From the NCBI RefSeq assembly GCF_000427425.1, contig NZ_KE386495.1, positions 1 through 64,000 on the forward strand: 64,000 nucleotides of DNA, in the 5' to 3' direction. The notes beneath the pieces are model-generated. The model worked only from the letters and a program-made list of their open reading frames with translations. It had not been told where the DNA came from and did not search any database. Made by a program: the position numbers and the translations under genes. Positions within the stretch are counted from its first letter, which is position 1; each line of letters opens with the position of its first letter. This stretch comes from Caldanaerobius polysaccharolyticus DSM 13641 (GTDB taxonomy: Bacteria > Bacillota > Thermoanaerobacteria > Thermoanaerobacterales > Caldanaerobiaceae). Positions 19,252 through 23,394 of this stretch are shown in pieces.

Positions 19252-19533
19252 TTAGTCAAGTATGGCTAAGATATCATTTTGTCTCAGTATCAGATACTCC
19301 TGGCCATCCAGTTTTACTTCTGTTCCCGCGTATTTAGAATAGATGACCTTATCGCCGACCTTAACCTCAAGCTCGACTTTCTTGCCGTCTATGTACTCGC
19401 CAGTACCCACAGCCACTACTTCGCCCTGCTGCGGCTTCTCTTTCGCTGTACCAGGCAGTACTATTCCCCCTACCACTTCTTCTGCTTCGATGGGTTTAAT
19501 GACCACTCTGTCGCCTAATGGCCTGATTTTCAT
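19252..19533 (-). CDS. groS: Co-chaperonin GroES
   Basis: 93 residues with [12 protein letters not shown], the mobile loop [17 protein letters not shown] and [13 protein letters not shown]. It caps the GroEL ring. CIRCE and a sigma-A promoter lie upstream. Confidence 0.98.
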
Positions 19534-19560
19534 CTTTCCAACCTCCTACTGTGGATTTTA

Positions 19561-19587
19561 TTAGCACTCGCTTTTATCGAGTGCTAA
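19561..19587. promoter_or_regulatory. CIRCE element (HrcA operator)
   Basis: Perfect TTAGCACTC-N9-GAGTGCTAA between the groES promoter and start. It is the binding site of the heat-shock repressor HrcA, whose gene is not in the window. Confidence 0.97.
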
Positions 19588-19598
19588 TCACATGAAAT

Positions 19599-19627
19599 AT
19601 AATAGATTAAAAAAAAAGATATTGCAA
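19599..19627 (-). promoter_or_regulatory. Sigma-A promoter of groES-groEL
   Basis: Minus strand: -35 TTGCAA (19627-19622), 17-nt spacer and -10 TATTAT (19604-19599), 12 bp ahead of CIRCE. Confidence 0.75.
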
Positions 19628-19687
19628 ATCCACCTAAAGTTAATTTTTCACCGTTTTAAGCAATTATACGCGCATTTATCAAATTTT

Positions 19688-20578
19688 TTAGTCCTTTTCT
19701 TCGTTTTTCTCATTTTCTTTCTTCTTTTCTTCAATTTCTAACGGTTTAGCTTTCTCAGAAGAACCTTCTTTGTTCTGTTCATCACCGCTCATTAGATAAT
19801 TTATGACTTTATCAAAGACTTCCTTTTGTTGATCGTTCATAAGAGCACGCACATTATTTAAAAATCTTTCCCTCTCATCTCCCGAATTGCCTCTCACCAT
19901 ATCTTCATTTCCACTGTTCTTGCTTTCTTTATCGCTGATCACCGATTCTGCTTTAGTGACCAGGTCGATTATTTTTAAATTCTTAATGAACTTATCTATT
20001 TTGCCATCGTCATCCCTAAACAGCGGCTTAAACATCTCTATAACCCGTGCTAACTTCTCTATCTGGCTTATCTCAGGATTTTCCACTATAGATTTAATCT
20101 TTGCCATGTACTCGCTCCAGTTGTTCACAAGCCCATCTATCAGTTCCAGCAGATTGATGGAGAAGTCCAAAAGCTCCTGTTTATCCTCCGCCATGTGGGG
20201 TTTTGCCGCCTTCAGCATCTCTATCCTCTTTTTTCTCTCATCCCTTATATCCCTCATCTGATGTACTACTCCAGTTTCGTCTATACTGTTTAAGCGCTTG
20301 CAGCAGTCATATACGTTGATGACGTTTATGTACAGATCTGATAGTATCTGCTCCCTTTCAGGCAAATAAGTCTTAACACTAGAAACCAAATCCTTTATTT
20401 TATACAAGTGATCTTCTGTCAACTTTATATCTGGCATCCTTAGTTTCAGCCCGTCTTGGTCCCCGCGCTGCCTTCTCCTGGGCAGAGGCAAAGCCATTAT
20501 ATTGTCTCCCATTCTCAGTTTCTTTTCTCTAATTATCAAAAGTAAAAGCAATAAGATGACCAGCATCTCTCTGTTCAA
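19688..20578 (-). CDS. Unknown helical protein with N-terminal membrane segment
   Basis: 296 residues. It begins with a short hydrophobic segment (MLVILLLLLLII, residues 5-16) followed by a very basic stretch (PRRRQRG). The rest is a charged, mostly helical body with no motif I recognise. The C-terminal 40 residues are almost all Lys/Glu (KKKENEKNEEKD end). It is the last and largest gene of the tiny-membrane-protein cluster, 64 nt after the 31-aa gene. The poly-Leu anchor recalls the LLFFFLLL cores of its neighbours. No function can be assigned. Confidence 0.75.
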   Translation of the reverse strand: MNREMLVILLLLLLIIREKKLRMGDNIMALPLPRRRQRGDQDGLKLRMPDIKLTEDHLYKIKDLVSSVKTYLPEREQILSDLYINVINVYDCCKRLNSIDETGVVHQMRDIRDERKKRIEMLKAAKPHMAEDKQELLDFSINLLELIDGLVNNWSEYMAKIKSIVENPEISQIEKLARVIEMFKPLFRDDDGKIDKFIKNLKIIDLVTKAESVISDKESKNSGNEDMVRGNSGDERERFLNNVRALMNDQQKEVFDKVINYLMSGDEQNKEGSSEKAKPLEIEEKKKENEKNEEKD

Positions 20579-20642
20579 TTAAATCCCTCCTTGATAGCAA
20601 ATATGTACAGGGCCAGCTTTCCTGGCCCCAATTGCCTTTTAC

Positions 20643-20738
20643 TTAATTTTCATGTATCATCGGTATAAAGAAGAATATAAACAATATTATTATAATAATC
20701 CAGAAAAAGCCGCCGCGGTGCCATCCTGATTCTGGCAT
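20643..20738 (-). CDS. 31-aa membrane protein with FFWIIIII core
   Basis: Starts MPESGWHRGGFFWIIIII and ends in FFFIPMIHEN; almost all of it is one membrane helix. GGAGG lies 8 nt before ATG. It closely resembles the 34-aa protein at 21442-21546: both have (W/F)(H/R)RGGFFWIII after a short polar start and a proline after the helix. The function is unknown. Confidence 0.7.
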   Translation of the reverse strand: MPESGWHRGGFFWIIIIILFIFFFIPMIHEN

Positions 20739-20804
20739 TTTGATAACCTCCTCTTTTTTCTCTTTTTTAAATCTAATATATTATACGGGAACAGCTCAAA
20801 AGTG

Positions 20805-20987
20805 TTACTGCAATTCAAGGCCCAACAATCTTCCAAAAAACCTTCTAACCTTTCTCCTGGGTTTATCCTTTGACACCATAGTGAGTATCAAAAAGAAAAA
20901 AAGCAGGTTATTTTCATCGAAATGAACATCAAAAAATATCGTAAGCAGCAGGAAAAAGAACAGCAGGGTATCACCGGGTATCTTCAT
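20805..20987 (-). CDS. 60-aa protein with two LLFFFL(L/I)L repeats
   Basis: It reads MKIPGDTLLFFFLLLTIFF, then a short acidic linker, then NNLLFFFLILTMV, then a basic tail (PRRKVRRFFGRLLG). The two hydrophobic repeats could each be half of a hairpin or one membrane segment. AGGAGG lies 9 nt before ATG. The gene follows the terminator at 21036-21073. The basic tail might lie along the membrane or bind nucleic acid; this is speculation. Confidence 0.75.
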   Translation of the reverse strand: MKIPGDTLLFFFLLLTIFFDVHFDENNLLFFFLILTMVSKDKPRRKVRRFFGRLLGLELQ

Positions 20988-21035
20988 AGCAAAACCTCCT
21001 ATTCACATTCTTTATACATTCTATGTAAGAATTTA

Positions 21036-21073
21036 AAAAAGGCTCTATCGTGCGATCACGATAGAGCCTTTTT
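21036..21073. terminator. Strong bidirectional terminator
   Basis: A 17-bp perfect stem, AAAAAGGCTCTATCGTG on the left arm, with a 4-nt CGAT loop. A/T runs lie on both sides. It separates the 68-aa gene from the 60-aa gene on the minus strand. Confidence 0.92.
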
Positions 21074-21078
21074 GCGGA

Positions 21079-21285
21079 TTAGTTAAACCAACGACCCTGG
21101 AATAATATGACGAGGAGCAGGAAGAAGAACAACAATGAACTGCCGCTGGTACCCGTGCCACCAAAGAGCCCATCAAAGAATCCCCAGAACCCATCGCCAA
21201 ATATTATGACCAGGAGCAGGAAGAAGAACAACAGTGAGCTGCCGCTATCAAAAAAGCCGCCTTGTGTCAATTTGTTCTCTGTCAT
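21079..21285 (-). CDS. 68-aa protein with two SGSSLLFFFLLLVI repeats
   Basis: Two copies of SGSSLLFFFLLLVI(I/L)F are separated by a Gly/Phe-rich linker (GDGFWGFFDGLFGGTG). The duplication is visible at DNA level around 21107-21134 and 21207-21236. GAGGAGG lies upstream of ATG. The opposite strand also has an open frame here but lacks a ribosome site, so the minus strand is taken as real. The function is unknown; I recall similar LLFFFLLLV repeats in small clostridial proteins but cannot confirm it here. Confidence 0.75.
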   Translation of the reverse strand: MTENKLTQGGFFDSGSSLLFFFLLLVIIFGDGFWGFFDGLFGGTGTSGSSLLFFFLLLVILFQGRWFN

Positions 21286-21305
21286 ATCAGACCCTCCTCA
21301 ATTAC

Positions 21306-21428
21306 TTATTTTTTTAGCTCTCTGTCTTCACATTTTCTTCTAGGCCTTAAAAGGATCACTATCAATATCACGATAATAATGATGAAGAAAAACCACTCAA
21401 AACCCCAGAATTCCTGCTGCTCAGGCAT
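21306..21428 (-). CDS. 40-aa membrane protein
   Basis: It begins MPEQQEFWGFEWFFFIIIIV, a polar start and one long hydrophobic helix, and ends with a basic tail (RPRRKCEDRELKK). GGAGGG lies 8 nt upstream of ATG. It lies 13 nt after the 34-aa gene and 20 nt before the 68-aa gene, so all three look cotranscribed. Confidence 0.7.
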   Translation of the reverse strand: MPEQQEFWGFEWFFFIIIIVILIVILLRPRRKCEDRELKK

Positions 21429-21441
21429 AACACAACCCTCC

Positions 21442-21546
21442 TTACTTATCAAATACTATAATACCGGGTACAAATAACAGGATTATTATTATTATTATAA
21501 TGATCCAGAAAAATCCTCCACGGAACCACTGATCTTTCCCTGCCAT
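21442..21546 (-). CDS. 34-aa membrane protein with FFWIIIII core
   Basis: It begins MAGKDQWFRGGFFWIIIIII and ends FVPGIIVFDK. AAGGAAGGTG precedes ATG. It is first in the minus-strand cluster and is a clear paralogue of the 31-aa protein at 20643. A possible sporulation-type promoter lies at 21615-21642. Confidence 0.7.
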   Translation of the reverse strand: MAGKDQWFRGGFFWIIIIIIIILLFVPGIIVFDK

Positions 21547-21614
21547 GATTTCACCTTCCTTTTAAATAATGCTTTACTCAAATCTCACCTAATCCTTTTA
21601 TCTTAAGTCTAATT

Positions 21615-21642
21615 TATAATATGTGGCTATGCAGCTATGTGT
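21615..21642 (-). promoter_or_regulatory. Possible sigma-K/sigma-E-like promoter of the tiny-protein cluster
   Basis: Minus strand: AC (21642-21641), 17 nt, then CATATTATA (21623-21615). This fits the AC-N16/17-CATAnnnTA pattern of mother-cell sigma-K promoters. Such short motifs occur by chance, so the call is weak. Confidence 0.3.
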
Positions 21643-21704
21643 TACACATCAGGACTCCCTTTCATAGTATGTAGTGAAATTGCCGTGAAGGGGGAAACGC
21701 CTAC

Positions 21705-22952
21705 ATGATAGATCTCATAATGGGAGCCATACTGGCTAAATTCTTAAAAGACAGCACCACAGAAAAAAAAATAGACAAGAGGCTAAAAATAAAAGCCCTG
21801 GATAACATCAGGGGCAGTATTACAGCCATAGTCCATACCAGAGCTTCAAAGGAGAGCATATTAAAGCACTTTGAGAAGTGTGGGGCATCGTTGAAATACG
21901 AATTGCCTTTTATTGATAGCTACGTGGTAGAAATACCCTGTGAAAGCATCAAAAAACTGGCGTCAAACCGCGATGTCATATTCATATCCGACGACTCTGA
22001 GGTCAAAAGCACTCTCAACATCGCCACAAAAGTCATAGGCTCTAAAAGTGTAAATGAATCGGGCTACACAGGTAAAGGTATAGGTATAGCTTTTCTGGAT
22101 ACAGGTGTTTATCCCCACCCCGACCTCACAGAGCCAGAAAACCGAATAATAGCGTTTAAAGATTTTATAAACGGTAAACAAAAACCCTACGACGACAACG
22201 GACACGGGACCCACGTTGCGGGCGATGCCGCGAGTAACGGCTATAGTTCTAACGGAAAGTACAGAGGGGTAGCCCCAGAAGCCAACATCATAGGTGTCAA
22301 AGTACTGGACGCAGCAGGTAGAGGTAATACATCTGATATACTGGCTGGTATGCAATGGGTCGTGGATAACGCAGATAAATATAATATCCGCATAGTATCC
22401 TTGTCCCTGGGTGACAAAGCGGTGCTTCCCTATTTTCTCGATCCCATGGCGCGAGGATGTGAGAAATTGTGGCAGCAGGGTTTTGTAGTAACAGTAGCGG
22501 CTGGAAACAACGGCCCTGAACCCAGGACCATAACCACGCCAGGCATAAGCCCATCGGCTATAACCGTTGGAGCGCTGGACGACAGAAGAACTGTAGATAC
22601 CTCGGACGATGAGGTAGCGTATTTTTCTAGCAGAGGTCCTACTTCCTCTGGCAGGCTTAAACCCGATGTGCTGGCACCAGGGGTAAACATCGTATCCCTC
22701 AACAGAAGTCCTATGTCAATGGGAGCAAGCAGCTTTTTATTTGAAAAGATGTACCGCACCGCTTCAGGTACTTCTATGGCGACGCCTATGGTAGCAGGAG
22801 CGGCAGCTCTATTGTTGCAAAAAAACCCGCACCTGACCCCTTCTCAAGTAAAAAACATAATGATAAAAACAGCAAAGCCGCTAAATGGCAAAGACAAATA
22901 TGCAGAGGGGTACGGTGTGATAGATATCAATGCCATGATTCAACAGGCATAA
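21705..22952 (+). CDS. S8 subtilisin-family serine protease (AprX-like)
   Basis: 415 residues. A propeptide-like region comes first (to about residue 110). The catalytic triad follows: Asp in AFLDTGVYPHPDL, His in NGHGTHVAG and Ser in ASGTSMATPMVAGA, plus the oxyanion Asn in AAGNNGPE. No signal peptide is evident, as in the cytoplasmic AprX type. The start follows AAGGGGG. It is transcribed away from the tiny-protein cluster and ends at a bidirectional terminator. Confidence 0.93.
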   Translation: MIDLIMGAILAKFLKDSTTEKKIDKRLKIKALDNIRGSITAIVHTRASKESILKHFEKCGASLKYELPFIDSYVVEIPCESIKKLASNRDVIFISDDSEVKSTLNIATKVIGSKSVNESGYTGKGIGIAFLDTGVYPHPDLTEPENRIIAFKDFINGKQKPYDDNGHGTHVAGDAASNGYSSNGKYRGVAPEANIIGVKVLDAAGRGNTSDILAGMQWVVDNADKYNIRIVSLSLGDKAVLPYFLDPMARGCEKLWQQGFVVTVAAGNNGPEPRTITTPGISPSAITVGALDDRRTVDTSDDEVAYFSSRGPTSSGRLKPDVLAPGVNIVSLNRSPMSMGASSFLFEKMYRTASGTSMATPMVAGAAALLLQKNPHLTPSQVKNIMIKTAKPLNGKDKYAEGYGVIDINAMIQQA

Positions 22953-22956
22953 AAAT

Positions 22957-22986
22957 AATGAGCACCTGCAACCTACGGTGCTCATT
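22957..22986. terminator. Bidirectional terminator between protease and atpC
   Basis: A 10-bp stem AATGAGCACC / GGTGCTCATT with a 10-nt loop. T-rich sequence lies on both sides (ATTTTATT on plus, ATTATTTTTATG on minus), so it serves the two convergent genes. Confidence 0.88.
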
Positions 22987-23394
22987 TTATTCCCTGTATT
23001 TCCTCGCGATTTTAAGTCGGTTCAAAGCCCTGGCAAGAGCCGCCTGTGACCGTATATACTCCTCTCTGCTTTTTATCTGCCTCAACCTCTCAAGAGCCCT
23101 CTCCTTAGCAGCTTCTGCCCTTTTTATATCAATTTCCTCCGGCCACTCCACGGCATCGGAAAGGATAAGGGTGCTCTCGGGTTTCACCTCCATAAACCCA
23201 CCAGATATAAAGGCTTCCCTCCACACTCCGTTGGCCAATATCCTTAAAGAGCCTATACCAATAGGTGCCACCATCGGCGTATGCCCGTGTAGCACTCCCA
23301 GCTCCCCATCTACGCTGCGCACGATGACCATGTCCACATCGCCTTCAAAAAACCTCTTCTCCGGTGTCAAAACCTCCAATCTGAATGTCTGCAT
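22987..23394 (-). CDS. atpC: ATP synthase epsilon subunit
   Basis: 135 residues. N-terminal beta domain with LEVLTPEKRFFEGDVDMV and LGVLHGHTPMVAP, then a C-terminal helical hairpin rich in Arg/Ala. It is the last gene of the F1Fo operon and its stop touches the terminator. Confidence 0.96.
   Translation of the reverse strand: MQTFRLEVLTPEKRFFEGDVDMVIVRSVDGELGVLHGHTPMVAPIGIGSLRILANGVWREAFISGGFMEVKPESTLILSDAVEWPEEIDIKRAEAAKERALERLRQIKSREEYIRSQAALARALNRLKIARKYRE

Follow-up and report, generated by a model that had tools for sequence, protein, structure and literature searches.

Can open reading frames (ORFs) that encode little beyond a hydrophobic core be genuine genes, and if so, what might their products build? 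The question is raised by five consecutive minus-strand ORFs in the window, the whole 64,000-nucleotide stretch of Caldanaerobius polysaccharolyticus DSM 13641 DNA that was analysed here. Little of what makes up clostridial spore coats and outer forespore membranes has been catalogued, and annotation easily overlooks proteins of 30–60 residues.

Five tiny genes in three protein families

The five minus-strand ORFs named in the original prediction are all present, each with a purine-rich ribosome site closely 5′ of it. In order of transcription they are C1 (21442–21546; 34 aa, MAGKDQWFRGGFFWIIIIIIIILLFVPGIIVFDK), X (21306–21428; 40 aa from its ATG, FEWFFFIIIIVILIVILL), B (21079–21285; 68 aa), A (20805–20987; 60 aa), and C2 (20643–20738; 31 aa, GGFFWIIIIILFIFFFIP). 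C1, X, and C2 have a single core, which is of the FFWIIIIIIII type in C1 and the FFWIIIII type in C2. B contains a double core of two LLFFFLLLV units, and A joins the cores LLFFFLLLT and LLFFFLILT to a basic amphipathic tail. Alignment sorts the five into three families: C (C1, X, and C2), B, and A. The FFWIIIII and LLFFF types first proposed were recovered, but the FFFIIII gene, proposed as a type of its own, is X, a divergent member of the FFWIIII family that the C profile matches with an E value of 1.9e-13. X is confined to the window's genus among the loci examined. The DNA duplication reported within the 68-aa gene was confirmed, its 47 nt being 91% identical, and a third copy of this unit lies inside the A gene at 66% identity. 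The two FFWIII genes, C1 and C2, share 62 nt at 76% identity.

Substitution patterns indicate strong constraint on the encoded proteins. The dN/dS ratio is about 0.01–0.18 in every comparison with unsaturated dS, in all three families, and protein A is 85% identical within the genus although its synonymous sites are saturated. Frame, start, order, and spacing are kept in four genera, which together with dN/dS far below 1 places the cluster beyond chance. The five ORFs are real, constrained genes (for C1, on the ORF list, orthologues, and low dN/dS), and A, B, and C are order-wide conserved protein families not listed in family databases. The proposal of a tiny membrane-protein family under selection had named two findings that would count against it, homologues without conserved starts and frames and no preference for synonymous change; the homologues keep both starts and frames, and substitutions strongly favour synonymous change. 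Searches with the five proteins gave no match in Pfam, NCBIfam, or PHROGs, bar one weak PHROGs match of unknown function (E 0.07) in a set that covers holins and phage small membrane proteins. Families of toxins, holins, TatA, and bacteriocins, considered for the tiny proteins, were rejected for want of a significant match. Literature searches found neither a description of the genes nor expression data for them.

Known tiny proteins of spore formers invite comparison. PF09680, the YjcZ (Tiny_TM_bacill) family, holds tiny transmembrane sporulation proteins of Bacillus. YjcZ proteins are tiny, with a glycine/aromatic-rich start, one hydrophobic core, and a link to sporulation. The window proteins share the size, the glycine/aromatic-rich start, and the hydrophobic core, but differ in their double-core members, their putatively anchored partner, and their protease neighbour, which YjcZ proteins are not known to have. 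An hmmscan search of the five proteins and their orthologues against Pfam-A and NCBIfam at E values up to 10 gave no match to YjcZ (PF09680), short low-complexity queries limiting the sensitivity of such a search. SpoVM and CmpA are tiny mother-cell proteins at the forespore surface, and SpoVM is a short amphipathic helix that recruits SpoIVA. The window proteins are likewise tiny, predicted for a membrane surface, and expected to show mother-cell-type expression; unlike SpoVM, with which they share no sequence match, they have uniformly hydrophobic cores instead of a short amphipathic helix, occur several to a locus, and include probable hairpins.

An AlphaFold2 model of A (pLDDT 68.5) contains two 15-residue helices with an acidic loop between them, followed by a third, basic amphipathic helix. 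At 15 residues the helices are short for spanning a membrane completely, so A may form a shallow hairpin or part of a thin oligomeric layer. The long protein described below is predicted to be all-helical, at low confidence (52.6).

Conservation and gene order in the Thermoanaerobacterales

A sixth member of the cluster lies 3′ of C2 (19688–20578, minus strand). It encodes 296 aa, beginning MNREMLVILLLLLLIIREKK, in which an N-terminal hydrophobic core is followed by helical repeats with KP(Y/F)L-type turns, and it has no Pfam, NCBIfam, or PDB relative. Neither this gene nor the promoters formed part of the original prediction. Further downstream lie groES and then groEL, with their own CIRCE element at 19561–19587, directly before groES and downstream of the tiny genes. 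On the other side, the divergent neighbour of C1 encodes an AprX-like S8 subtilase of 415 aa (21705–22952, plus strand; Peptidase_S8, E 2.5e-58), and at every locus where both were scored aprX lies within 265 nt of C1. The protease beside which conserved gene order was to be sought is thus a conserved neighbour.

The order C1-(X)-B-A-C2, long gene, groES-groEL recurs, with small local losses, in the 22 genomes that carry the set, out of 24 analysed for the order, and spans four genera. The C profile and the long gene each have matches in 22 of these 24; the long gene had no match in the other relatives searched outside it, and the A profile matches members of the order only among 398 genomes drawn from the phylum. 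Named relatives with the set include Thermoanaerobacter, Caldanaerobacter, Thermoanaerobacterium, and a Mahella MAG. The local variation mostly concerns C2, which is present in two copies in several Thermoanaerobacterium-like genomes and one related genome, absent from two Thermoanaerobacter-like genomes, and broken by a frame change in a third (locus L044, genome G021), where, the genome being a MAG, either an assembly error or a decaying gene is possible. In two Thermoanaerobacter-type genomes (L042, L043, and L098; G016 and G012), one of them T. wiegelii Rt8.B1, the cluster is interrupted by transposon-like insertions, and the tiny ORFs stay open on both sides.

The Mahella locus (L108) has a divergent subtilase, B (63 aa), A (44 aa), a C/B fusion, and the long protein. 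The fusion joins a C core to an LLFFFLLLV core in 63 aa from its ATG. There is no groES beside this cluster, which makes the subtilase, the tiny proteins, and the long protein the stable unit and groES a local neighbour. A heat-shock (HrcA/CIRCE) or groESL operon was rejected as the main reading on the basis of this locus and of the downstream position of CIRCE.

The set is absent from spore formers in the same class and from family f2 of the order. SpoIVA is present in all tested genomes with the set, bar one 80%-complete genome that carries an analogous cluster, but it also occurs in genomes without the cluster, so that its presence or absence does not discriminate. On these distributions the cluster is not a core sporulation set.

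Lone C-type paralogues occur elsewhere in several genomes (L083–L087, L099, and L100; L092–L095 and L097), each preceded by a CATATTAT- or CATAATAT-type box; in one genus the neighbour is pckA, in others it is an aminopeptidase-like gene. Genome G019 carries, next to a YmaF-family gene, a second C-B-A-C cluster (L091, 6101–6829) that has a promoter of its own; the A copy there lacks the usual start. In Thermoanaerobacterium-type genomes (L028 and L030–L032), a conserved 172-aa gene is found past the subtilase, about 3.6–4.2 kb before groES, and has IYIAKFILFVFLLILINDTKF as its central hydrophobic stretch.

Promoters and transcript layout

Candidate promoters were found for three transcripts. 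P1, before C1-X-B (21609–21645, minus strand), reads GTAACAC ... CATATTAT AAATTAG, with the spacing AC-N15-CATATTAT; in the aligned genomes GTGTCAC or GTAACAC is followed after ~15 nt by CATATTAT and a conserved TA(t/g)TAGGTC. P2, before C2 and the long gene (20773–20808, minus strand), reads GTAACAC-N15-CGTATAAT ATATTAG. Its form across genomes is GTAACA-N16-CGTATWAT-(g/a)TATTAG, and its −35 starts on the A stop codon. The divergent aprX promoter (21641–21675, plus strand) reads GTTACAC ... CATAGTAT GTAGT, spaced as GTTACAC-N17-CATAGTAT. Neither A nor the long gene has a clear box to itself.

CATATTAT is a canonical mother-cell −10 box, and the σK promoters of C. difficile pair a −35 AC with CATATAAT (PMC3789822). 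The C1 promoter has both elements of the mother-cell (σK/σE) type, a CATA-type −10 and an upstream AC; C2 has them in relaxed form only. The box AC-N14-18-CATAnTAT lies 5′ of 19 of 19 C1 orthologues vs 8 of 279 background genes, counts to be read with the regular expression having been fixed after part of the sequences had been seen and with C1 orthologues being non-independent observations. Among the eight background matches are members of such clusters, an aprX, and a single lipoprotein orthologue that recurs. For C2 the strict box is found in none of 19 cases and the relaxed form in 17, vs 18 of 279 background genes. The strict box also precedes C paralogues and the tiny genes of the distant loci described below. 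A 16-nt motif comprising the box and downstream sequence, built from 11 genomes, has all of its perfect matches at C1 and C2; matches with one mismatch elsewhere are mostly intragenic and no commoner than in the control, and thus the motif revealed no wider regulon. The order has seven yabG loci; the promoters of two of them, which belong to the window's genus, do not clearly have the full box in common.

The transcript is also punctuated by hairpins. In the window a strong terminator-type hairpin, possibly an attenuator, lies between B and A (21036–21073, minus strand; −26.3 kcal/mol, z −8.1); 19 of 19 loci have a hairpin in this position, with differing stem sequences. Between C2 and the long gene lies another hairpin (20609–20630, minus strand; z −2.7), at whose position a GC-rich inverted repeat is aligned. 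In the two genera with several genomes, the synonymous divergence of B is mostly no greater than that of groEL, and that of A and the long gene is mostly near saturation; high output of C1–B and lower output of the rest would fit this layout. TTC makes up 63–78% of B's Phe codons vs 13–27% in the background, but this bias is weakened as proof of high expression because TTC may serve to avoid T runs. In the window's B, Phe codons are mostly TTC despite the AT-rich genome, perhaps through T-run avoidance in FFF or high expression.

Analogous clusters in distant Bacillota

Weak profile matches led to analogous clusters in distant Bacillota. Besides tiny core proteins, these hold proteins with KPFL units, disordered proteins with one or two cores at their end, and a trypsin-like protease resembling Nal1; larger partners, as in the window, bear a core of this kind at one terminus. 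L165 carries an S8 protease besides the Nal1-like one. The clusters L165, L166, and L205 (genomes G154, G115, and G074) encode tandem core proteins of 29–62 aa of the SSLVFLIILVLLIFDG type, and L205 has at least seven tiny ORFs in a row. These three resemble the window in their tandem core proteins, KPFL-containing and core-tailed partners, and promoter type; they differ in core sequence and in having a Nal1-like protease. When the long protein and the KPFL proteins were compared profile to profile, 25 columns aligned at a probability of 6%, and we therefore call the distant clusters analogous and not homologous. The SLVFLIIL type occurs in three of 358 genomes. The Nal1-like protease, used as a search anchor, gave more loci, several of them without tiny genes nearby.

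Several analogous clusters adjoin coat or germination genes. Pfam matches place YabG beside L165, L203, and L207, a SipL and LysM protein in L203, and a SleB-type hydrolase with YpeB in L204; in L212 a SleB/YpeB-type pair was read from its likeness to L204. In C. difficile, the YabG-like CD3569 is σK-controlled and the YmaF-like CD3620 is on the mother-cell list (PMC3789822). Both share with the window a promoter of the AC ... CATATWAT kind, and their homologues lie beside related or analogous clusters, but they are different proteins, linked to the window by regulation and neighbourhood only.

Two further loci (L167 and L173; G120 and G185) have a 60-aa double-core protein (DNSWLIIIIILFLFMG...EDELLIIILLLLF) behind GTAACAC-N17-CATACTAT, adjoining a Mn-catalase/ferritin-like gene and a Nal1-like protease. 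At L220 and L221 (G420, Mahella MAG), yabG is in two overlapping pieces with an internal stop, through either gene breakage or misassembly.

A putative role in the spore envelope

From the promoters and neighbours we infer expression during sporulation in the mother cell: mother-cell-type promoters, together with the coat and germination neighbours of the analogous clusters (yabG, sleB-ypeB, SipL/LysM), favour this reading. A role in sporulation or heat shock had been hinted at from the outset; the first gains from this evidence, and the second loses ground to the CIRCE element and the Mahella locus. We consider it the best reading, and somewhat more likely than not, that the cluster encodes mother-cell-made spore-envelope proteins of late sporulation, with co-packing cores and an anchored long protein.

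As to envelope location, co-assembly, and the part of the protease, we offer a hypothesis. Late in sporulation, the mother cell would produce the tiny proteins from σK- or σE-type promoters, and they would join the spore envelope, at the outer forespore membrane or the base of the coat. The single-core C and the double-core A and B would insert as short helices or hairpins, whose Phe/Ile cores could pack into an oligomeric hydrophobic layer in or on the membrane. The 296-aa protein may be tethered in this layer by its N-terminal core, its helical KP(Y/F)L repeats facing the mother cell, and the AprX-like protease, with its similar promoter, may mature or trim coat or anchored proteins. Conserved across the order and defined by its promoters, such a set of core-only proteins and their anchored partner would offer a directly testable entry into the building of very heat-resistant spores by thermophilic anaerobes, and a reason to search the surroundings of yabG, sleB, and coat genes in other genomes for similar proteins.

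A broader conjecture, which we hold tentatively and with less than even confidence, is that spore-forming Bacillota repeatedly build a part of the envelope from core-only mini-proteins (Phe/Ile-rich cores of 12–20 residues, alone or as hairpins), core-tailed KP(Y/F)L scaffolds, and an AprX- or Nal1-like protease, the window holding the Thermoanaerobacterales version of what would be an undescribed module.

Alternative explanations

The alternative that survives best, unlikely as we think it, is a vegetative response to membrane stress, in which σA-transcribed membrane subunits are tied to groESL/AprX quality control and the long protein is a cytosolic adaptor. In the order the cluster is always directly upstream of groES, but groESL has its own CIRCE, and the Mahella set persists without groES. 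The C1 and C2 boxes can also be read as weak σA promoters (TATWAT, four of six −35 positions), and TATWAT with GTAACA at 17 nt would be a passable one, yet CATATTAT with AC is of the mother-cell type. B and C1 have the synonymous evolution of a highly expressed gene, as this explanation would have it; the coat and germination genes near analogous clusters speak against it.

We give distinctly less credence to a germination apparatus in which AprX acts in signalling like a Csp protease and the tiny proteins hold AprX or its target at the spore membrane. In C. difficile the mother cell expresses the csp genes (PMC3789822), and the subtilase is conserved beside the cluster under a similar promoter, but its scores of 80 and 66 bits fall far under the curated cut-offs of the CspBA/CspC germination subtilase models, 1250 and 675 bits respectively. 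Some analogous clusters do lie near sleB-ypeB, whereas no cortex-lytic enzyme adjoins the window cluster.

Membrane-active peptides encoded in tandem, either type I toxins or leaderless bacteriocins, would match the genes in size, hydrophobicity, and tandem copies. Their position is fixed in the order and not scattered, however, no exporter lies in the immediate neighbourhood, and a C core is fused to a B core in Mahella. The stretch 19300–23000 had no Rfam match, a search that covers listed antisense RNAs, and neither a toxin model nor a toxin, bacteriocin, or phage family matched significantly; we regard this explanation as very improbable.

Finally, that the ORFs are translated little or never and owe their conservation to an RNA element, as low-complexity composition, the conserved hairpin after B, and the extra synonymous conservation in B might suggest, is scarcely credible given the low dN/dS in all three families, the conservation of protein A over saturated synonymous sites, the C paralogues elsewhere in the genomes, and the Mahella C/B fusion.
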